A stretch of DNA of 39,014 bases. Source: a virus. Made by a program: the position numbers and the translations under genes. The DNA lies in IMG/VR virus record IMGVR_UViG_3300021405_000033, positions 1 through 39,014 of that record. One strand, written 5' to 3'. This document shows, piece after piece, positions 12,565 to 27,825 of the stretch; position 1 is the first letter of the stretch; each line of letters starts with the position of its first letter. A model generated the notes under the pieces. The model was given only the letters and a program-made list of their open reading frames with translations, did no database searches and was not told the DNA's origin.

Positions 12565-13239
12565 ATGCGCCCGACTGAATTAAGAAAGTCCGCATTGTCG
12601 GAGGTTGAAGCGCCCAAAGGCGAACTTATAGGCTATGCCCGTGTTTCGACTGAAGATCAGAGCCTCGCGCTCCAGACTGACGCCCTCAAGAAAATCGGGT
12701 GTCTCAACATCTACGAGGAAAAGATCAGTGGCGCGAAACGTCACCGTCCGCAACTCGATCTCGCTATCAAAGATTTACGTCCTGGTGACACTCTTGTCGT
12801 CTGGCGTATCGACAGACTTTCTCGCTCCATGGGCGACTTCTATGAACGACTTGCGCAGATCGAGGCGGCTGGTGCCGGGTTCAAGTCTGTATCTGAAAGC
12901 TTTGACTTCACCACGGCTACAGGCCGTCTAATTCTTGGGATCATGGCTGTCATGGCGCAATTCGAGAGACAACTCACAATCGAAAGGACGCGGGCAGGAA
13001 TGCAAGCTCTAAAGGAACGCGGCCACAAGCTAGGCGCGACGATCAAATTCACTGCCGACAAGAAGCGCCAGGCGCGCGCCTTGCTCAAAAAGATGAAGTG
13101 GGTGGTGCTCACCCGCAAAGACCACGCCGGAAAACCGCTTAGGGCTCGGCGCCGCGTCTATAGCAAGATTGAGATCGCCCACAAGTTGGATATATCGATC
13201 GGCACGCTGCACAACTGGATTCGGGATGGGATGAAGTAA
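12565..13239 (+). CDS. Serine recombinase (resolvase/invertase class), 224 aa
   Basis: The N-terminal catalytic domain shows IGYARVSTEDQSLALQ with catalytic Ser28 and Arg26. VVWRIDRLSRS supplies R84 and R87, and GRLILGIMAVMAQFERQLTIERTRAG forms the long dimerisation/DNA helix. The C-terminus holds a helix-turn-helix (SKIEIAHKLDISIGTLHNWI, about 201-220). Length is that of a small resolvase or invertase, not a large serine integrase, so inversion or dimer resolution is more likely than classic integration. No flanking crossover sites were found by eye. It starts without a Shine-Dalgarno, directly behind a promoter-like sequence. Confidence 0.92.
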   Translation: MRPTELRKSALSEVEAPKGELIGYARVSTEDQSLALQTDALKKIGCLNIYEEKISGAKRHRPQLDLAIKDLRPGDTLVVWRIDRLSRSMGDFYERLAQIEAAGAGFKSVSESFDFTTATGRLILGIMAVMAQFERQLTIERTRAGMQALKERGHKLGATIKFTADKKRQARALLKKMKWVVLTRKDHAGKPLRARRRVYSKIEIAHKLDISIGTLHNWIRDGMK

Positions 13240-13784: not shown

Positions 13785-14018
13785 GTGGCGCTGCACTTTG
13801 TAGGATTCCGAGACGAGCGGATTTATACCGCCCGCGCCATCTTTGGCGAAGCGGATTTCTACCACCGGAATTGGGACATGCGCGCCCGTCAGGAAATTGT
13901 CGAAGGCGATGTTGCCGTATTTGCCACCGGCACGATCAATGATCCGGTCAAGCCCACAAGCTGGGATGACAGCGAAGCAGATATTAGGGCGTGGGGAACG
14001 CCGGAAGATTGGAAATGA
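13785..14018 (+). CDS. Small hypothetical protein, 77 aa
   Basis: GTG 13785 is preceded by GAGGAGAC. The product is acidic with ALHFVGFRDERIYTARAIFG at the start and ends GTPEDWK. No domain is recognised. It overlaps the nucleotidyltransferase ATG (ATGA at 14015), suggesting coupled translation and a possible linked role. Confidence 0.7.
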   Translation: MALHFVGFRDERIYTARAIFGEADFYHRNWDMRARQEIVEGDVAVFATGTINDPVKPTSWDDSEADIRAWGTPEDWK

Positions 14019-14998
14019 CACCTGTAGTCCGCATGAAGTTCGGCTCGCACCTATACGGCACTGACACGCCGCAGAGCGACCTCGACTTCAAGAGCCTATT
14101 TATTCCCGATGCGCGCGACATCCTGTTGCAGCGCGTGAAGCACACCGTCGCCACGAAACGGCCCAAAGCCGAAGGCGAAAAGAACTATGCTGGCGAAGTT
14201 GACGAGGAAGGCTATGCGCTCCACCGCTTCATGCAGTTGGTGGCGGAAGGACAGACTGTTTCCCTGGACATGCTGTTCGCCCATGATGGGATAATTCTGG
14301 ATCGGTCGGAGTGCTGGGACAATCTTGTGGCGCATCGTCATTTGCTGCTGACAAAGAAAAGCGCGGCGTTTGTCGGCTACTGCCGCACCCAGGCCAACAA
14401 GTATGGGATCAAGGGCTCGCGGGTTGCTGCGGCCAGAAATGCCGCAGCTATGTTTGCCGATGCCTGCGAACGCCTTGGCACTACGGCGAAGGTGTCCGAG
14501 ATCGAGGCCGAGCTGAAAAGGTTCGTGGCCGAGAATGAGCATTCGGCGCTTATCCCGCTTTCGGCGGTCGGTCGCGGCGAGGAACACCCTCTCATGCACT
14601 TTGAGTGCTGCAACAAGAAAGTGCCGTTCACGGTCAACCTCAAGGCCGCGCACGAATTGTTTGCCCGTGTCTATGACGAGTACGGGCATCGTGCGCGAAA
14701 GGCCGAGACCAATGTTGGTATCGACTGGAAGGCGCTGTCCCACGCTGTCCGCGTGGCGCGCGAAGCCGTCGAACTTCTTGAAACCGGCCATATCACTTTC
14801 CCGCTGCCATATGCAGCGCACGTCCTTGAGATCAAGACTGGCGCGCTGACCTATGATGTGGTCGCGGGCGAAATTGAGGAATTGCTCGTTGCGGTCGAGG
14901 CGGCGTCCGAAAGATCGACGCTCCCCGACACGCCAGACATGCAATTTATGGAAGATGTGATCGCCTTCGAGTATGGAAAGGCGGTTGCCCGTGGGTAG
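14015..14998 (+). CDS. Pol-beta-superfamily nucleotidyltransferase (COG3541/RlaP-like), 327 aa
   Basis: ATG 14015 overlaps the previous stop. MKFGSHLYGTDTPQSDLDFKSLF carries the GS (10-11) and D-x-D (22, 24) motifs that bind nucleotide and metal in polymerase-beta-fold nucleotidyltransferases. KYGIKGSRVAAARNAA and a long helical C-terminal half follow. The pattern matches the COG3541 / RNA-repair-associated RlaP group as I know it; members transfer NMPs, probably to RNA ends. Strikingly, its stop codon lies inside the tRNA-His gene that follows (10 bases of overlap). A link between enzyme and tRNA is inference. Confidence 0.78.
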   Translation: MTPVVRMKFGSHLYGTDTPQSDLDFKSLFIPDARDILLQRVKHTVATKRPKAEGEKNYAGEVDEEGYALHRFMQLVAEGQTVSLDMLFAHDGIILDRSECWDNLVAHRHLLLTKKSAAFVGYCRTQANKYGIKGSRVAAARNAAAMFADACERLGTTAKVSEIEAELKRFVAENEHSALIPLSAVGRGEEHPLMHFECCNKKVPFTVNLKAAHELFARVYDEYGHRARKAETNVGIDWKALSHAVRVAREAVELLETGHITFPLPYAAHVLEIKTGALTYDVVAGEIEELLVAVEAASERSTLPDTPDMQFMEDVIAFEYGKAVARG

Positions 14999-15062
14999 CA
15001 TAGTGGTAGTGCGCTGGGTTGTGGACCCGGATGCCCGGGTTCGATCCCCGGCCTACGGCCCA
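14989..15062 (+). tRNA. tRNA-His (anticodon GTG)
   Basis: All arms fold. The acceptor CCGTGGG (14989-14995) pairs with CCTACGG (15052-15058) with one G-U. The D-stem is GCAT/GTGC and the anticodon stem CTGGG/CCCGG, with loop TTGTGGA giving GTG (15021-15023). The variable loop has four bases. The T-stem is CCGGG/CCCGG with loop TTCGATC. The discriminator is C73, usual for His, and CCA is encoded (15060-15062). Base -1 is C rather than the G normally encoded at -1 in bacterial tRNA-His, so G-1 would have to be added after transcription, or recognition is relaxed. The 5' end overlaps the nucleotidyltransferase gene. Confidence 0.93.
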
Positions 15063-19027: not shown

Positions 19028-19165
19028 ATGGCGCACTGGAGAGATGAGGAAGATTTCTGCCGTCCGAGGGTGACCTTTGGGGCTGCCCCAGCCTTGATCG
19101 CGTTTGCGATAAGCATGGCGCTCTGGGCGGGATTTATCTGGTCTGCGGTCGAGTTTGGCCGGTGA
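19028..19165 (+). CDS. Small membrane protein, 45 aa
   Basis: ATG 19028 follows TAGGAGGGGTC, a strong signal containing the upstream stop. One membrane span is visible (APALIAFAISMALWAGFIWSAV). Its stop overlaps the GTG of the methyltransferase (GTGA), so it is translationally coupled. Confidence 0.65.
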   Translation: MAHWRDEEDFCRPRVTFGAAPALIAFAISMALWAGFIWSAVEFGR

Positions 19166-19779
19166 CGGAAGCGTTCGATGGGATTCCGCGCGCCCATTTT
19201 GCGGCGATTTTGGCCGATCCACCGTGGCATTATAAAACCTACAACGAAAAGGGTCGGAAGCGTTCGCCCGACTGGAAACCATTCAAGGGCTCACCGTCGA
19301 TACACTACGACACAATGAGCGCCGACAGCATCCGATCGCTTCCCGTTTCTGACCTCGCCGCGCCCGATACATGTCTTTTCCTTTGGATCTGCTGGCCGAT
19401 GCTGCAGGAAGCATTGCAGCTTATAGAGGCGTGGGGGTTCACTTACAAAACCTGTGCCTTCGATTGGATGAAAGCCAAGAATCAGCTTGAGATTTTCAGC
19501 AATGAGCCAGCCGTTCAAATCGGTATGGGGTACTGGACGCGCTCGAATAGCGAAGTGTGCTTGCTCGCCACACGCGGCAGACCAAGGCGGCTCAAAGCTG
19601 ATGTTCGCCAAGCCATCATCGAGCCGCGCCGCGAGCACTCCCGCAAGCCAGATTGTGTTTATGACCGTATAGAGCGGCTTGTCGCTGGCCCATATCTCGA
19701 GCTTTTCGCGCGCACCTCGCGCCCAGGCTGGACGGCATGGGGGAACCAATCTGGCAAGTTCTCGGTGGCGGCAGAATGA
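19162..19779 (+). CDS. MT-A70 family N6-adenine methyltransferase, 205 aa
   Basis: The catalytic motif DPPW is at residues 19-22 (AAILADPPWHYKTY). SWITCH-like elements of the family follow: TCLFLWICWPMLQEALQLIEAWGF, KPDCVYDRIERLV and LELFARTSRPGWTAWGNQ, the S-adenosylmethionine pocket. In phages this family methylates adenine in DNA, often to evade host restriction. The NPPF/DPPW order and length are normal for a stand-alone enzyme. GTG 19162 is coupled to the upstream membrane gene. Confidence 0.9.
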   Translation: MTEAFDGIPRAHFAAILADPPWHYKTYNEKGRKRSPDWKPFKGSPSIHYDTMSADSIRSLPVSDLAAPDTCLFLWICWPMLQEALQLIEAWGFTYKTCAFDWMKAKNQLEIFSNEPAVQIGMGYWTRSNSEVCLLATRGRPRRLKADVRQAIIEPRREHSRKPDCVYDRIERLVAGPYLELFARTSRPGWTAWGNQSGKFSVAAE

Positions 19780-22095: not shown

Positions 22096-22382
22096 CAGAG
22101 GAAGATGCAAAAACTCGCTGGTGCCCCTTCTCCCGCGTATCGTGCAGCGGCGGCCCGATAGAAGGAAACCATGCCGCGAACCGCCGCGCGACCGGGGGAT
22201 CGATCAGCCCAGAATATCTATGCATTGCCTCTGCCTGCATGGCGTGGCGCTGGGCTCTAGTGGAACGAACTTCGGATGACAGCGGACAGCCTGTAGAGAC
22301 GTGGCCCGATCTTATGCCGTTCCACCCTAAGGGGACGCTACTAACTCGCCACGGCATTTGTGGCCTAGCAGGAAAGCCATGA
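22092..22382 (+). CDS. Small Cys-rich protein, 96 aa
   Basis: ATG 22092 overlaps the HNH stop. The product has WCPFSRVSCSGG, then YLCIASACMAWRW, a pattern I know from short phage proteins that begin TEEEAKTKWCP. The conserved Cys and Trp residues suggest a small metal or disulphide fold. Function unknown. The N-terminus is echoed in the preceding HNH gene. Confidence 0.72.
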   Translation: MTEEDAKTRWCPFSRVSCSGGPIEGNHAANRRATGGSISPEYLCIASACMAWRWALVERTSDDSGQPVETWPDLMPFHPKGTLLTRHGICGLAGKP

Positions 22383-22789
22383 GTGATCTGGACACCGTTG
22401 CCCGCGCGATCTACCACGTCTTTTCCCAGCCCTTTGGCGGCAAGAAGCCGTGGTTCGATCAGCTTCCGCTTGACGCCAAGGATTTCTTGCGCGATCAGGC
22501 CAAGGCTGGGCTGGAGAGGCTGAGGGATCAGGTTTCGGACGAGGCGATCGCGGATGGCCAGTTGGTTTGCGATGCTGGGTCTTGGCGGACTCAAGAACCT
22601 ACCCCAGACGCCCGTAAGGTATTCCAAGCCATTATGGACCGCGTGATCGCGGGCGAGGTGAATGATGAATCGGCGCGGGTTCCTGACTGGTATAACGGGC
22701 TTTGTGGCGTGCGCTCCCGCGATAGTTCGGGCGTCGAGCCTGATGAAAGTGAAGCCAGTTGGTTATGCTGCAGACCCATCGACCAGTAG
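22379..22789 (+). CDS. Hypothetical protein, 136 aa, with out-of-frame overlap
   Basis: ATG 22379 overlaps the previous stop. Residues 1-95 are an orderly helical domain (LDTVARAIYHVFSQPFGGKKPWFDQLPLDAKDFLRDQAKAGLERLRDQV). The last 42 residues (from about NDESARVPDWY) lie in another frame over the start of the Tat-signal gene and look like unselected sequence. The overlap is 128 bases. An earlier stop may have been lost. Confidence 0.68.
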   Translation: MSDLDTVARAIYHVFSQPFGGKKPWFDQLPLDAKDFLRDQAKAGLERLRDQVSDEAIADGQLVCDAGSWRTQEPTPDARKVFQAIMDRVIAGEVNDESARVPDWYNGLCGVRSRDSSGVEPDESEASWLCCRPIDQ

Positions 22790-22913
22790 CGTTTTACACC
22801 GATGGTCCGGCTATGATGGAACCTCTGTGGTCGTGTCCGAGGAAATGGTTGATAATTGGAGTGCTATGCAGTTGCGCGAACATATTAGGCACGGGTTGTT
22901 GGGGGCTACATGA
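22662..22913 (+). CDS. Twin-arginine (Tat) signal protein, 83 aa
   Basis: The N-terminus MMNRRGFLTGITGFVACAPAIVRA has twin Arg, Phe-Leu, a hydrophobic core and an A-x-A type end. This is a Tat signal for export of a folded protein. The mature part is about 58 residues with ending LREHIRHGLLGAT. GAGGTGA precedes the ATG. Similar short Tat proteins are common near phage accessory genes of alphaproteobacteria, as I recall, but their role is unknown. Its stop overlaps the radical SAM ATG. Confidence 0.72.
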   Translation: MMNRRGFLTGITGFVACAPAIVRASSLMKVKPVGYAADPSTSSVLHRWSGYDGTSVVVSEEMVDNWSAMQLREHIRHGLLGAT

Positions 22914-23803
22914 CGTTTGAAGAAGCCGTCGCTTCCATGCGCGCGCCGCGTCAGATGCACGTTATATGCATCGACGTGACCTCAAAATGTGATTTGGCCT
23001 GCAGCAACTGCACCCGCCTTCTCGCCAATCAGGACAAGACCTGGGACATGACGCCGGAGAATTTCCGGCTCGCGCTTCAATCTCTCAAAGACTACTTCGG
23101 CATCATCGCCATGCTCGGCGGCAATCCCTGCATGCACCCGAAATTCCCCGAACTCTGCCGGATATTCGTCGAGGAAATCCCCAACCGCTTGCAGCGCGGG
23201 CTCTGGACTAACAATCCGTTCAAGCATGAGAAACTCTGCGAGGAGACGTTCGGAACCTTCAATCTCAACGCCCACGGCGCCAAGCGCGCGCTAGATCCTA
23301 TCAAACGGATGACGGCGCACGGCCAGAAGAACGGTGCTATCGTGTGGAGTTACATGGGCAACAGCGTCCATGCCCCTCTGCTCACTGCTGTGAAGGATAT
23401 TTACCGCGATGAAGAAACCATGTGGGACAAAATCAGCAAGTGCGAGATCAACCGCGATTGGTCGGCCTCCATCGTCCAGAACGCGCAAGGCGAGCTACGT
23501 GCCTATTTTTGCGAGGTGGCTGCAGCCTTCGATCTTGCCCGCGGGACGGATAGCGGTCACCCGGTAACGCCGGGCTGGTGGAACCAAAAGATCGAGGTGT
23601 TCTCCGATCAGATCAAGACCTTCTGCCCAGGCTGCGGCGTGCCGGCCAAGCAGAAAGGCGTGAAGGACTCTGACGAGAAGGACGTTTACACTGCGAGCAA
23701 CGCCGACATTGCGCTCAAGGACAAGAAGCGGCATGCGGAGTTGTTGCTGAAACCGGAGATCGAGGAACGCCGCGTGACGCAATATAGCGAGATTACGCAG
23801 TGA
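22910..23803 (+). CDS. Radical SAM enzyme, 297 aa
   Basis: The [4Fe-4S] cluster motif is C27-x3-C31-x2-C34 (SKCDLACSNCTR), followed by MLGGNP (69-73), the GGE-like S-adenosylmethionine contact. Extra cysteines in the C-terminal part (C178, C201, C239, C242; FCPGCGVPAKQ) suggest an auxiliary cluster as in SPASM/twitch enzymes. The substrate is unknown. ATG 22910 overlaps the Tat gene stop and its own end overlaps the glycosyltransferase start, so the three are co-translated. Confidence 0.87.
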   Translation: MTFEEAVASMRAPRQMHVICIDVTSKCDLACSNCTRLLANQDKTWDMTPENFRLALQSLKDYFGIIAMLGGNPCMHPKFPELCRIFVEEIPNRLQRGLWTNNPFKHEKLCEETFGTFNLNAHGAKRALDPIKRMTAHGQKNGAIVWSYMGNSVHAPLLTAVKDIYRDEETMWDKISKCEINRDWSASIVQNAQGELRAYFCEVAAAFDLARGTDSGHPVTPGWWNQKIEVFSDQIKTFCPGCGVPAKQKGVKDSDEKDVYTASNADIALKDKKRHAELLLKPEIEERRVTQYSEITQ

Positions 23804-24480
23804 GCACCGTCGCCGTCATCACCGCCACCACCGGGCGCGATACGCTGCGCCAGACCATCGAATCGGTGGCCGCCCAGACCTACCCGTGCAACCATTATGT
23901 CATCGTGGACGGCAATGATGACGTGCAGTTCACCGACGCCTACAAGGGCGAGGTTGTCTATCTGCCACGCCGCACGGGCGGCAATGGCATGATGAATGGG
24001 GCCATTCTCGCTATGGCGGCATACCTCGCCACCGAGGACTATCTGTGCTTTTGCGATGACGACAACTGGTTCGCCAGTGACCATGTGGAGAGCTTGGTCA
24101 AGGCGCTGGAGGAGAAAAATGCCGCATACGCTTATTCTCTCAGGAAGCTATGCAATCCTGACGGCGGTTTTTGGGCCAATGACGATGGTGAAGCTATCGG
24201 TCATCATGGCGATCTGGTTGACGCTAATTGTTATTTGTTTCGCCGTGACCTGGCGGTTGGGATCGCGCCTCTCTGGTATAGAACCGAAGGGCCGATGTGC
24301 GTCGGGGACCGATATGCTTGGGCTGCTCTCAAGCAGAACAATGTCCCCTGGGCCGCCACCGGGCGCTACACCCTCAACTATCGCATCTCAGCGAGAGGCC
24401 AGGACATGAAGCCGTTCTTCTTCATGAAGAACGCAATCGCGCGCTCGAAATATCCTGACGGTTTCCCGTGGGCGGTATGA
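23800..24480 (+). CDS. Family 2-type glycosyltransferase, 226 aa
   Basis: The N-terminus VAVITATTGRDTLRQTIESVAAQTYP is the classic GT2 start, with the sugar-nucleotide Asp in VIVDGNDD. YLCFCDDDNW (81-90) is the metal-binding D-x-D motif. GGFWANDDGEAIGHHGDLVDANCYLFRRDLA is the acceptor region. Its length is that of a bare GT-A domain. It is coupled to the upstream radical SAM gene, so the two may act on one product. Targets could be DNA, a virion protein or host glycan. Confidence 0.87.
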   Translation: MSTVAVITATTGRDTLRQTIESVAAQTYPCNHYVIVDGNDDVQFTDAYKGEVVYLPRRTGGNGMMNGAILAMAAYLATEDYLCFCDDDNWFASDHVESLVKALEEKNAAYAYSLRKLCNPDGGFWANDDGEAIGHHGDLVDANCYLFRRDLAVGIAPLWYRTEGPMCVGDRYAWAALKQNNVPWAATGRYTLNYRISARGQDMKPFFFMKNAIARSKYPDGFPWAV

Positions 24481-24584
24481 TGCTTAGAAAACCGCGCGCA
24501 AGGAGCAGAACAGAAAATGCCGCATGGGTGTTCTTTGCCTTGCTCGGGCTTCTAATATTTCCGATCTTCTATCTCTTTGGATGA
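24477..24584 (+). CDS. Single-span membrane micropeptide, 35 aa
   Basis: ATG 24477 overlaps the glycosyltransferase stop and the TGA overlaps the next ATG. The product has a basic head (LRKPRARSRTENAA) and one span (WVFFALLGLLIFPIFYLF). By the positive-inside rule the head faces the cytoplasm. It may tether the neighbouring enzymes to the membrane; that is inference. Confidence 0.55.
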   Translation: MMLRKPRARSRTENAAWVFFALLGLLIFPIFYLFG

Positions 24585-26080
24585 CAAACTCTGTCTGCCT
24601 GATCACGCCGCCCTCGCCCTTTCTTCTAGACGAAAGGGTATTCGTGAGCCTCGGTATTCTCAAAGTCGCTTCCAGCCTCGAAGCGCGCGGCTACAAGGTC
24701 AACATGCTCGACCTCTCAGGCGTGGAGAACTATCTGACGCCGCTTGAGGACTACATACGTGATAGCGGGGACATGGCAATCGCCATCACCACCACCACTC
24801 CACAACTACCTTCGGTCGTCAAAATAGCGGAGCGCGTGCGCGAACTGCGGCCCAATCTGCGTCTGATCCTTGGCGGGCCGCACGTCACGCTGGTGTACTC
24901 GGCGCAAAAGCTCGAACGCAAAGCCGGGCGCGTGGGACGCGGGAGCGAGGCCGCCCGGAGGCTGGAAGCAGCATTCGATGTGCTTGTAAGCGGAGACGGC
25001 GAGTTGGCGATATTCGAGGCGCTGGCGGAGGGCGCGCCCAAGTTCATAGATGGCGATGATCCCAAGGGCGGGCTGTTCCTGACCGACCAAATGTTCACCG
25101 ACGCGCCGATGCCTGCGCGCCATCTTGTTGACCTGAAATCCTACCACTACGCAATCGAAGGCCATCCCGCCACCAGTCTCATTGCCCAACTCGGTTGTCC
25201 CTTCGCCTGCGGTTTCTGCGGCGGGCGCAATTCCAAGAGCCTGCGCGTCATTCGCAACCGCTCCACCGAGTCCGTCCTGGCCGAAGTCGAACATCTCCAC
25301 GCCGCCCACGGCTATACCGGCTTCATGTTCTATGACGACGAACTCAATGTCAGTAAAAGCCTGATCGAGTTGATGGACGGATTGACTGAAATGCAAATGC
25401 GGCTTGGCGTGGAGTTTCGGCTGCGCGGGTTTGTCAAATCCGAACTCTTCACCGCCGCACAGGCCAAGGCGATGTACCGGGCGGGGTTTCGGTGGCTGCT
25501 GTGTGGTTTCGAGGCCGCCAATCCTCGCATCCTCACCAACATCAACAAGCGCGCCACCCTGGAGGATAACACCAGGGCGGTCGATTACGCCAAGGACAAT
25601 GGGCTCAAGATCAAGGCGCTGATGTCGGTGGGCCATCCGGGCGAGAGCGAACAGAGCATCGAAGATATCCGCGCGTGGCTGATCGAGCGGGAGGTGGACG
25701 ATTTCGACTGCACCGTCATCACCACCTATCCCGGCACGCCCTACTACGACATGAGCGTTCCCCACGAAACCCTGCCGCATGTCTGGACCTATACCCAGCC
25801 CAAGACCGGGGACCGTCTCCACGCCTACGAGGTTGATTATTCGGTGTGCGCCGATTACTATAAAGGCGATCCCAACGGGGGCTATCGTTCCTTCGTGTTC
25901 ACCGACCATTTGTCCGCAGAGGAAATTGTGACGCTGCGCGATGACGTGGAGCGCGATGTGCGCGCGAGGCTGGGCATCCAGTTCAATCCGGGCGCCGCCG
26001 CGCTGCGCTTTGAGCATACGATGGGGCAGGGATTGCCGGGCTTCATTCATCGCCAGAGCGCGCCATGTCCTTCGATCTAG
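24581..26080 (+). CDS. B12-binding-domain radical SAM enzyme, 499 aa
   Basis: ATG 24581 is chosen because it overlaps the upstream TGA. Residues 1-160 form a Rossmann-like B12-binding domain (CLITPPSPFLLDERVFVSLGILKVASSLEARGY and LILGGPHVT). The radical SAM cluster is C206-x3-C210-x2-C213 (GCPFACGFCGG), with FYDDELNVS, LLCGFEAANPRIL and SVGHPGESEQS as the later barrel strands. Class B members use methylcobalamin to methylate or rearrange unreactive carbons. Such an enzyme is very unusual in a small phage, and directly upstream of the terminase gene (16-base overlap). Substrate unknown. Confidence 0.9.
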   Translation: MTNSVCLITPPSPFLLDERVFVSLGILKVASSLEARGYKVNMLDLSGVENYLTPLEDYIRDSGDMAIAITTTTPQLPSVVKIAERVRELRPNLRLILGGPHVTLVYSAQKLERKAGRVGRGSEAARRLEAAFDVLVSGDGELAIFEALAEGAPKFIDGDDPKGGLFLTDQMFTDAPMPARHLVDLKSYHYAIEGHPATSLIAQLGCPFACGFCGGRNSKSLRVIRNRSTESVLAEVEHLHAAHGYTGFMFYDDELNVSKSLIELMDGLTEMQMRLGVEFRLRGFVKSELFTAAQAKAMYRAGFRWLLCGFEAANPRILTNINKRATLEDNTRAVDYAKDNGLKIKALMSVGHPGESEQSIEDIRAWLIEREVDDFDCTVITTYPGTPYYDMSVPHETLPHVWTYTQPKTGDRLHAYEVDYSVCADYYKGDPNGGYRSFVFTDHLSAEEIVTLRDDVERDVRARLGIQFNPGAAALRFEHTMGQGLPGFIHRQSAPCPSI

Positions 26081-27825
26081 CCCGCTTTAAGCAGTTCTGC
26101 GCGCAACTTCGCATCGAGTCCAAGGAACACGGCCTAATCAAGCTGGGCAAGCTTCTCGGCACCCAGACCCATTTCATGGACGAAGTTGCTAAGGGGCTAG
26201 AGGAAGGCGTTCATTTCTTCGTCTGCCTTAAAGGGCGGCAGCTTGGCATTTCCACCATCAGCCTCGCCCTCGATCTCTATTGGATATTCGTCCACGGCGG
26301 ATTGCAGGGCTCTCTCACTACCCACGACGAACCCAGCCGCGACATGTTCAAGTCCACGCTCACCATGTACATGGACGGCTTACCGAGAAAGTGGAAGATC
26401 AAATATGTTCAGCACAACCGCAATCAGCTTGTGCTTGATAACCGCTCGCGGCTCTACTACCAGATCGCGGGCACACGCAACAACGGCACGCTCGGACGCA
26501 GCAAGGGCATGGCGTTCCTGCACGCCACCGAGGTTTCGTCATGGGGCGACGAGGAGGGGCTTCGCTCCCTGATCTCGTCACTCGCGGAAAACAATCCCGC
26601 TCGTCTCTACATCTTCGAATCCACCGCTCGCGGGTTCAACATGTTTCACGACATGTACAAGACCGCTAAGCGGGCGAGAACACAGCGGGAGATATTCGAG
26701 GGATGGTGGCGCAATGAGCTTTATTCCGCTGCGCCCGACAGCAACATCTATAAGGTTTACTGGGACGGCAAGCTCAAGCCGGAAGAACGCGAATGGGTGC
26801 GCGAGATCAAGAAGCTCTATGACGTGGAGATAAATTCGCGGCAGATCGCGTGGTGGCGGTGGAAGCTGGCGGAAGAGGTGCACGACGAGTCGATCATGTA
26901 TCAGGAGTTTCCGCCGACCGAGGATTACGCCTTCATCATGACGGGGACGAGCTTCTTCAGCCATGCGCGCTGCACCGACGCGGCGAAGGACTCCAAGCGC
27001 AATCTGCCCGATTGCTACCGCTATGTGATGGGGGCTTATTTTCAGGACACGGAAGTGGTAAAATCCACCGAGCGTCTTGCCACGCTGAAGGTCTGGGAGG
27101 AGCCGGTTGACAATGGGTACTATGTTATCGGGGCTGATCCGTCCTACGGGTCAAGCGACCACTCGGATCGCTTCTGCGTCCAAGTCTTTCGGGCCTACGC
27201 CGATGGGCTGGACCAAGTGGCAGAATTTTGTACTCCAGAACTTAATACCTACCAATTTGCCTGGGTCATTTCTCATCTCGCCGGAGCGTACCGTAACTCC
27301 ACCCTCAACCTCGAAGTTAACGGTCCCGGACAAGCCGTCATCAACGAACTCCGAAACCTGAAGCGCCAGGCCGTGACCATCACCGGCCAGCAGGGCAAGG
27401 AATTGATGAACGCCCTCGGTCACATGTCACACTACATCTGGCGCAAGAACGACTCTCTGGGCGGCGCGTCCAATTCCATCGGCTATGTCACGTCGCACTC
27501 CTCAAAAGAGCGCTACATGAATTACTTCAAGGATTTGTTCGAGCGCGGTCTGATGAAGGTCTATTCGATGGACCTGCTCGACGAAATGAAATCCATCGTG
27601 CGCGACCAGGGCACCATCGAAGCCTATGGCCGGGGCAAGGACGACCGCGCCATTGCCACCGGCCTCGCCTGTGTCGCCTACATGGAGCAGGTGCAGCCCA
27701 AGCTGCTCGCCGCCAAGATCACACGGGCTATAAGCCACGCGCAGGAGGTGTTCACGCCGGAGGAAGTGGCGGCGCAGCGGACTGTTTCGACGTATCTCAA
27801 GAAGATTGGGATGTACGGAAAATGA
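26065..27825 (+). CDS. terL: Terminase large subunit, 586 aa
   Basis: The ATPase domain has FFVCLKGRQLGIST (51-64), the terminase Walker A variant, and GMAFLHATEVSSWGDEEG, the Walker B/catalytic Glu region. FESTARGFNMFHDMY acts as motif III. The nuclease domain has YYVIGADPSYGSSDHSD (first acidic residue), LNLEVNGPGQAVINELRN (second) and GKDDRAIATGLACVAY (third). It pumps DNA into proheads and cuts it. ATG 26065 overlaps the end of the B12 enzyme. No classic small subunit sits upstream; the helix-turn-helix protein downstream is one candidate. Confidence 0.95.
   Translation: MSFDLARFKQFCAQLRIESKEHGLIKLGKLLGTQTHFMDEVAKGLEEGVHFFVCLKGRQLGISTISLALDLYWIFVHGGLQGSLTTHDEPSRDMFKSTLTMYMDGLPRKWKIKYVQHNRNQLVLDNRSRLYYQIAGTRNNGTLGRSKGMAFLHATEVSSWGDEEGLRSLISSLAENNPARLYIFESTARGFNMFHDMYKTAKRARTQREIFEGWWRNELYSAAPDSNIYKVYWDGKLKPEEREWVREIKKLYDVEINSRQIAWWRWKLAEEVHDESIMYQEFPPTEDYAFIMTGTSFFSHARCTDAAKDSKRNLPDCYRYVMGAYFQDTEVVKSTERLATLKVWEEPVDNGYYVIGADPSYGSSDHSDRFCVQVFRAYADGLDQVAEFCTPELNTYQFAWVISHLAGAYRNSTLNLEVNGPGQAVINELRNLKRQAVTITGQQGKELMNALGHMSHYIWRKNDSLGGASNSIGYVTSHSSKERYMNYFKDLFERGLMKVYSMDLLDEMKSIVRDQGTIEAYGRGKDDRAIATGLACVAYMEQVQPKLLAAKITRAISHAQEVFTPEEVAAQRTVSTYLKKIGMYGK

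Follow-up and report, generated by a model that had tools for sequence, protein, structure and literature searches.

Gene block upstream of the terminase gene

The window analysed here is the full virus record IMGVR_UViG_3300021405_000033 (39,014 bases), which is annotated as linear and is possibly incomplete. Upstream of its terminase large subunit gene (TerL; 26065-27825; PF17289, phrog_2, with Pfam Terminase_6C above the cut-off) lies a block of five open reading frames (ORFs), all on the plus strand like TerL. They encode a Tat-type short protein (22662-22913), a putative Twitch-type radical SAM enzyme (rSAM1; 22910-23803), a soluble GT-A glycosyltransferase of 226 amino acids (aa) (GT2; 23800-24480), a possible single-span membrane peptide of 35-38 aa (24468-24584, starting at ATG 24477 or GTG 24468) and a B12-binding radical SAM enzyme of 499 aa (B12-rSAM; 24581-26080, with a frame open from 24524 and its likeliest start at 24581). 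The first-pass annotation had described five genes overlapping end to end and running into terminase, and this layout was confirmed: the four junctions inside the block are 4-base overlaps (ATGA or GTGA), and the last 16 bases of B12-rSAM are shared with TerL. The block is flanked by genes for an HNH endonuclease, TerL, a helix-turn-helix protein, the portal protein, the major head protein and tail proteins, and its position is the entry to the packaging and structural module.

rSAM1, GT2, B12-rSAM and TerL agree in their GC pattern over the codon positions (GC3 0.71-0.75); neither small ORF follows it, and the Tat ORF has no coding-type pattern. The ratio of nonsynonymous to synonymous substitutions (dN/dS) was about 0.015-0.04 for rSAM1 (close pairs L013/L014, L018/L020 and L022/L023 among the related loci, which are numbered L001 and upwards), about 0.13 for B12-rSAM (source phage versus L029) and about 0.18 for GT2 (L018/L020). 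Given the common codon pattern and the low dN/dS, rSAM1, GT2 and B12-rSAM are working genes under strong constraint and not chance frames. A promoter and terminator scan of 19-31 kb gave the same counts as in shuffled sequence.

Pairing of rSAM1 with a glycosyltransferase

rSAM1 scored 26.4 bits against Pfam Radical_SAM, just below the cut-off of 29.5, and came near the cut-off of no NCBIfam model. Its CX3CX2C motif (C27, C31, C34) is invariant in 22/22 phage rSAM1 sequences and in the compared bacterial fusions. The possible auxiliary cluster noticed at first pass gained support from the candidate ligands C178, C239 and C242, present in 22/22 phage sequences, and C201, present in 21/22. All seven candidate cluster cysteines are kept in three aligned bacterial fusions, consistent with a C-terminal Twitch region carrying four cysteines for one predicted auxiliary cluster. 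With an AlphaFold2 model (mean confidence, pLDDT, 85.6), the best Foldseek match was SpeY (3.2e-8, TM-score 0.57), named a Twitch radical SAM dehydrogenase in the title of its structure entry, followed by BtrN (9.7e-6) and AbmM; archaeal GDGT-MAS, SuiB and BlsE came behind, and EpeE was, like SuiB, among the lower matches. SpeY, BtrN, AbmM and BlsE all work in sugar, aminocyclitol or glycosyl-nucleoside pathways. SpeY (spectinomycin) and BtrN (butirosin) have the fold, the CX3CX2C motif with a C-terminal cysteine set and the length (about 250-300 aa) in common with rSAM1, but at 16% identity, and theirs are sugar/aminocyclitol pathways. By fold, rSAM1 thus looks like a Twitch enzyme, but it is not filed as a member of the SpeY or BtrN family, since sequence profiles reach neither significantly.

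GT2 matched Pfam Glycos_transf_2 (PF00535; 5e-15, 56.3 bits against a cut-off of 23.3) and has an invariant acidic motif, D87/D88 (alignment A2). Its model (pLDDT 91.5) has a GT-A fold, with AvpGT, 6p61, SpsA, WrtF and TarP as best Foldseek matches, and no membrane helix was found in the sequence or the model.

rSAM1 and GT2 are adjacent, in either order and with a gap of 0-264 bp, in 26 of 28 phage loci, a set that includes some near-copies; in the two loci where no GT2 is visible (L015 and L016), rSAM1 lies near the sequence end. The pair is often accompanied by a TylF-like O-methyltransferase (matching Methyltransf_24 and TylF) and sometimes by a UDP-glucuronate decarboxylase (UDP-xylose synthase, UXS). 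L077 has the order UXS-GT2-rSAM1-TylF-TerL, and two unrelated phages, L017 and L022, have a short-chain dehydrogenase/reductase (SDR) gene in the order SDR-GT2-rSAM1, with a TylF-like gene behind in L017. Sequence comparison identifies the SDR of L017 as a UDP-glucuronate decarboxylase (1.4e-107 to solved UXS1), and the terminase of this phage is not matched by TerL of the source phage. The pair was also found in a 137-kb contig (L028). Neither the UXS nor the TylF-like partner was seen in the source phage.

In bacteria, rSAM1 occurs fused to a GT2-like region (L172 and L180, 82% identical to each other) and to an FkbM-like methyltransferase region (L178 and L185), all in one alphaproteobacterial order, the fused regions being assigned by reading; one fusion gene adjoins a GT25 gene. 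Fusion and recurrent pairing together are strong evidence that rSAM1 and GT2 act in one pathway, and the bacterial fusions offer a second route to the same chemistry outside phage. rSAM1 was detected in one of 385 alphaproteobacterial genomes (a fusion) and in 6 of 297 genomes of the order of the first match (four of them strong); the class to which the Gallionella metagenome-assembled genome belongs gave, across 274 genomes, one partial and weak match. Among 50,697 phage records, no isolated-phage relative of rSAM1 or GT2 was found.

In 133 of 136 pairs GT2 has diverged more quickly than rSAM1 (L018/L020: 66% identity for GT2 versus 95% for rSAM1), as if the chemistry were fixed and the acceptor varied. 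In L020 and L021, rSAM1 is 99.7% identical and GT2 79%, with a near-identical N-terminal part, which looks like recombination within GT2.

The B12-binding enzyme and the variable slot

B12-rSAM has a predicted cobalamin-binding radical SAM architecture, with an N-terminal B12-binding domain (PF02310; 2.7e-11, 43.8 bits against a cut-off of 32.1) and a radical SAM domain (PF04055; 2e-22, 80.4 bits against 29.5) carrying CX3CX2C at C206/C210/C213. It is 82% identical to its homologue in L029 and has 60 bacterial homologues (54-78% identity) in many phyla. Their neighbourhoods (101 genes scanned) include 13 epimerase/dehydratase genes, NDP-sugar dehydratases being represented, 13 GT2 and 12 GT1-type genes as well as several methyltransferases, and the nearest alphaproteobacterial loci contain SDRs, a Gfo/Idh/MocA oxidoreductase, an aldo/keto reductase and an FkbM-type methyltransferase. 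In the tree, phage B12-rSAM falls inside an alphaproteobacterial clade (11 rows, support 100/99); the gene entered phages once or twice. In phage L001 its neighbour is an SDR that shares 52-53% identity with those of L017 and L022.

Among solved proteins AprD4 comes closest, and among NCBIfam models HpnJ scores best; the scores (102 of 577.6 bits for HpnJ, 62.1 of 500 for AprD4) are far below the cut-offs, so B12-rSAM is not a member of either family. AprD4 has the B12-binding radical SAM architecture but is not known to use cobalamin. Both proteins are, like B12-rSAM, of the B12-binding radical SAM type, and both act on sugar moieties. HpnJ turns hopanoid-bound glucosamine into a cyclitol ether (PMC12583986), and non-methylating cobalamin radical SAM enzymes perform ring formation or rearrangement (PMC13142503); with these precedents, methylation, deoxygenation and rearrangement are all possible for B12-rSAM.

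B12-dependent radical SAM enzymes had been called costly and rare in small phages, and the rarity holds for this family: among the 50,697 phage records, only Streptomyces phage SF3 (entered twice) has a distant relative, gp36 (L005:7362-8861), which adjoins thymidylate kinase and MutT genes in a different context. In IMGVR_UViG_3300038550_000067 (L003:383-2887), a B12-rSAM homologue carries an in-frame, intein-like insert of 344 aa at a conserved site (flanks ...YTGFM | C...GN | CYDD...), with a LAGLIDADG_3 match below threshold (E 0.0028).

TerL, the downstream boundary of a variable slot, has relatives encoded on at least 599 IMG/VR stretches. Related phages have TerL 65-78% and head protein 79-89% identical, yet the stretch upstream of TerL differs, and 30 of the 50 TerL groups with enough upstream sequence carry at least one sugar-type gene there, in many combinations. 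The types counted were GT2, rSAM1, B12-rSAM, TylF-like methyltransferase, UDP-xylose synthase-like SDR and two families that look like glycosyltransferases; the fractions are upper estimates, since rSAM1 and GT2 served as queries in retrieving part of the loci. Slot genes of clusters 8 and 19 had no Pfam match in the family search, so their glycosyltransferase nature is by eye only. B12-rSAM is present in 2 of the 50 groups, those of the source phage and L029. The five ORFs were rejected as one conserved operon, as the genes and their order differ between phages and most lack B12-rSAM; of the gene order sought in other phages, the rSAM1-GT2 core is what recurs. The block is therefore not passed on as a whole: its genes are exchangeable cargo, constrained wherever present. 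The fixed pre-terminase position, the changing sugar genes and the nearly constant head-protein gene make the slot an exchange site for glycosylation capability. No match to plasmid DNA was found.

The overlap with terminase had been taken to time the block with packaging. It is real, but the last slot gene, whichever it is, overlaps or abuts TerL in many groups (rSAM1 in L014, GT2 in L032, B12-rSAM in L029). Translational coupling therefore belongs to the slot itself and says little about function beyond likely late expression.

On the upstream side of the slot, a conserved small gene (22380-22789, plus strand; cluster 9), whose homologues precede rSAM1 in eight relatives, is overlapped by the Tat ORF. 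About 30 aa at the N-terminus of the latter (MMNRRGFLTGITGFVACAPAIVRASSLMKVKP) are similar to small ORFs of other phages (48-77%); those of L187, L188, L189 and L190 have this Tat-type N-terminus in common and unrelated C-termini, and the one in L188 is followed, about 0.9 kb downstream, by a distant TerL (37% identical). The Tat ORF is not present in the slots of the nearest relatives and, although Tat-like N-termini occur in other phages, it is unsupported as a conserved block member, and its role in the block is doubtful. The membrane ORF has one homologue (49% over 37 aa), between rSAM1 and GT2 in L012, which suggests that the peptide is an optional component of the block. As genes, both small ORFs are weakly supported.

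Probable sugar tailoring and candidate acceptors

The block had been proposed to make an unusual modified nucleotide or glycan. The glycan part is favoured by the pairing and fusion of rSAM1 with GT2, the UXS and TylF-like partners, the rSAM1 fold and the B12-rSAM neighbourhoods, while the nucleotide part gained no support. The product is thus probably an unusual sugar, made and attached by the phage, and not an unusual DNA base. With a probability of roughly one half, rSAM1, GT2 and B12-rSAM form an exchangeable sugar-tailoring cassette in the late operon, whose finished sugar goes onto a late acceptor, likeliest a virion protein. GT2 would transfer the sugar from a nucleotide sugar; UDP-xylose or a related compound is a plausible donor, because sister phages place their own UDP-glucuronate decarboxylase in the cassette; host supply of this donor is assumed for the source phage because the partner genes were not seen there. 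rSAM1, acting like SpeY and BtrN, would abstract hydrogen at a sugar carbon, leaving that position oxidised (or epimerised). B12-rSAM, apparently recruited from alphaproteobacterial sugar clusters, may add another radical-based modification (methylation, deoxygenation or ring rearrangement), a step that would be an extra of the source phage, as most relatives do without it. Attachment of the finished sugar would alter particle recognition.

The most likely ranking of acceptors places virion protein first and host surface second; the former is favoured by the late-operon position, a soluble glycosyltransferase without membrane partners, a mycobacteriophage precedent and the faster divergence of GT2. 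Of the DNA or head modification suggested at first pass, head modification is possible, whereas DNA was indicated by position only. More tentatively, a widespread phage module comprising UDP-xylose synthase, GT2, Twitch radical SAM enzyme and TylF-like methyltransferase, here with B12-rSAM added, may place a new radically modified sugar on virions, with a constant radical chemistry and a diversifying glycosyltransferase.

Several points weigh against the sugar-tailoring cassette. The TM-score to SpeY is a likeness at the level of fold only, and an rSAM1 profile search of PDB sequences found no significant solved relative (BtrN at E 0.17, SpeY unlisted). The AprD4 and HpnJ matches of B12-rSAM lie mostly in the common radical SAM core, and B12-type radical SAM enzymes span sugar and non-sugar chemistry. 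We infer the sugar substrate, the step order and the donor, and the acceptor is the least certain element. The bacterial homologues sit in cell-surface sugar clusters, which would also fit a host-surface target.

The same sugar chemistry could be directed at the host envelope (lipopolysaccharide/O-antigen or capsule), a late receptor change sparing progeny from debris or infected cells, or excluding competitors. The sugar genes around the bacterial B12-rSAM and rSAM1 homologues, including GT25, heptosyltransferase and SDR genes, agree with this, as do SpsA, WrtF and TarP among the fold neighbours of GT2, and SAR11 myophages carry glycosyltransferase and radical SAM cassettes in a host-recognition cluster for which O-chain modification was proposed (PMC7029224). 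These pelagimyophages, likened here by description only, differ in being large and T4-like, with the cluster beside tail fibres and no terminase slot. GT2, however, is short and soluble, the late-operon placement is late for exclusion, and no membrane-anchored glycosyltransferase, flippase or polyprenyl-phosphate glycosyltransferase was found among the annotated genes, although no search was aimed at GtrA, the flippase that Gtr-type O-antigen seroconversion clusters combine with membrane-anchored GtrB and a membrane glycosyltransferase. We rate a host-envelope acceptor as rather unlikely.

Hypermodification of packaged DNA, with the radical SAM and glycosyltransferase enzymes making a modified, glycosylated base, has in its favour that the block adjoins TerL and that DNA glycosyltransferases and radical SAM QueE are known from phages; a weak TAGT match (E 0.08) was below the cut-off. 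It is nevertheless improbable: the record, which may be incomplete, has no match to a thymidylate-synthase-type hydroxymethylase (PF00303; control positive in 9/14 genomes), a QueE/7-deazaguanine identity for rSAM1 was rejected for lack of an NCBIfam QueE match, the accompanying genes of relatives encode a UDP-xylose synthase and a TylF-like methyltransferase, and the bacterial rSAM1 fusions sit in chromosomes, one beside a GT25 gene. A search of the record for TET/JBP oxygenases gave zero matches, with the control equally silent. Slightly less probable still is a pathway resembling that of ribosomally synthesised and post-translationally modified peptides, in which the Tat ORF or the membrane peptide would be the substrate of both radical SAM enzymes and the glycosyltransferase. 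Small ORFs do overlap the enzyme genes, SPASM/Twitch and B12-type radical SAM enzymes modify peptides, and SuiB and EpeE appear in the Foldseek results; but most relatives keeping rSAM1-GT2 lack the small ORFs, no transporter or protease was seen in the slot, and the bacterial B12-rSAM neighbours are sugar genes. Least probable of all is passing cargo, host genes caught in a permissive slot without benefit to the phage, which absence from close relatives had been expected to suggest. The block is indeed missing or exchanged in relatives, and B12-rSAM lies inside an alphaproteobacterial clade and in few TerL groups; strong purifying selection on rSAM1 and B12-rSAM and the recurrence of the rSAM1-GT2 pairing in unrelated phages argue against cargo without benefit.

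Both glycosylation cassettes and radical SAM modules have been described in phages before. Mycobacteriophages Che8 (gp110), Corndog (gp38) and Myrna show virion glycosylation (PMC12363180, citing Freeman et al. 2023); the likeness would lie in phage-encoded glycosyltransferases decorating virion proteins, and PMC12363180 mentions no radical SAM, B12 enzyme, UDP-xylose synthase or O-methyltransferase cassette. Campylobacter phages CP220 and CPt10 encode 11-12 radical SAM proteins, proposed as metabolic genes (PMC2853527), which resemble the present case as an exchangeable phage radical SAM module with distant BFVD fold matches to rSAM1, but for which the accessible text describes no glycosyltransferase partner or terminase slot. 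No description of the two combined, of the rSAM1-GT2 pair with its bacterial fusions or of its recurrence beside terminase was found in the literature, most subscription papers being outside the search. Phage glycosyltransferases are common and their sugars seldom known. Here two uncharacterised radical SAM families, both below all NCBIfam cut-offs, are linked to sugar biosynthesis, in one case through a gene that is paired with, and naturally fused to, that of a glycosyltransferase, which offers a concrete substrate class and testable chemistry.

Elsewhere in the window, a DNA methyltransferase of phrog_359 (19162-19779) makes ordinary base methylation of the phage DNA possible. An RlaP-type RNA-repair nucleotidyltransferase gene (13991-14998) ends on a tRNA-His gene (14989-15062), and a serine recombinase/DNA invertase-type gene is located at 12565-13239, with which the phage may be able to integrate or to invert a segment.

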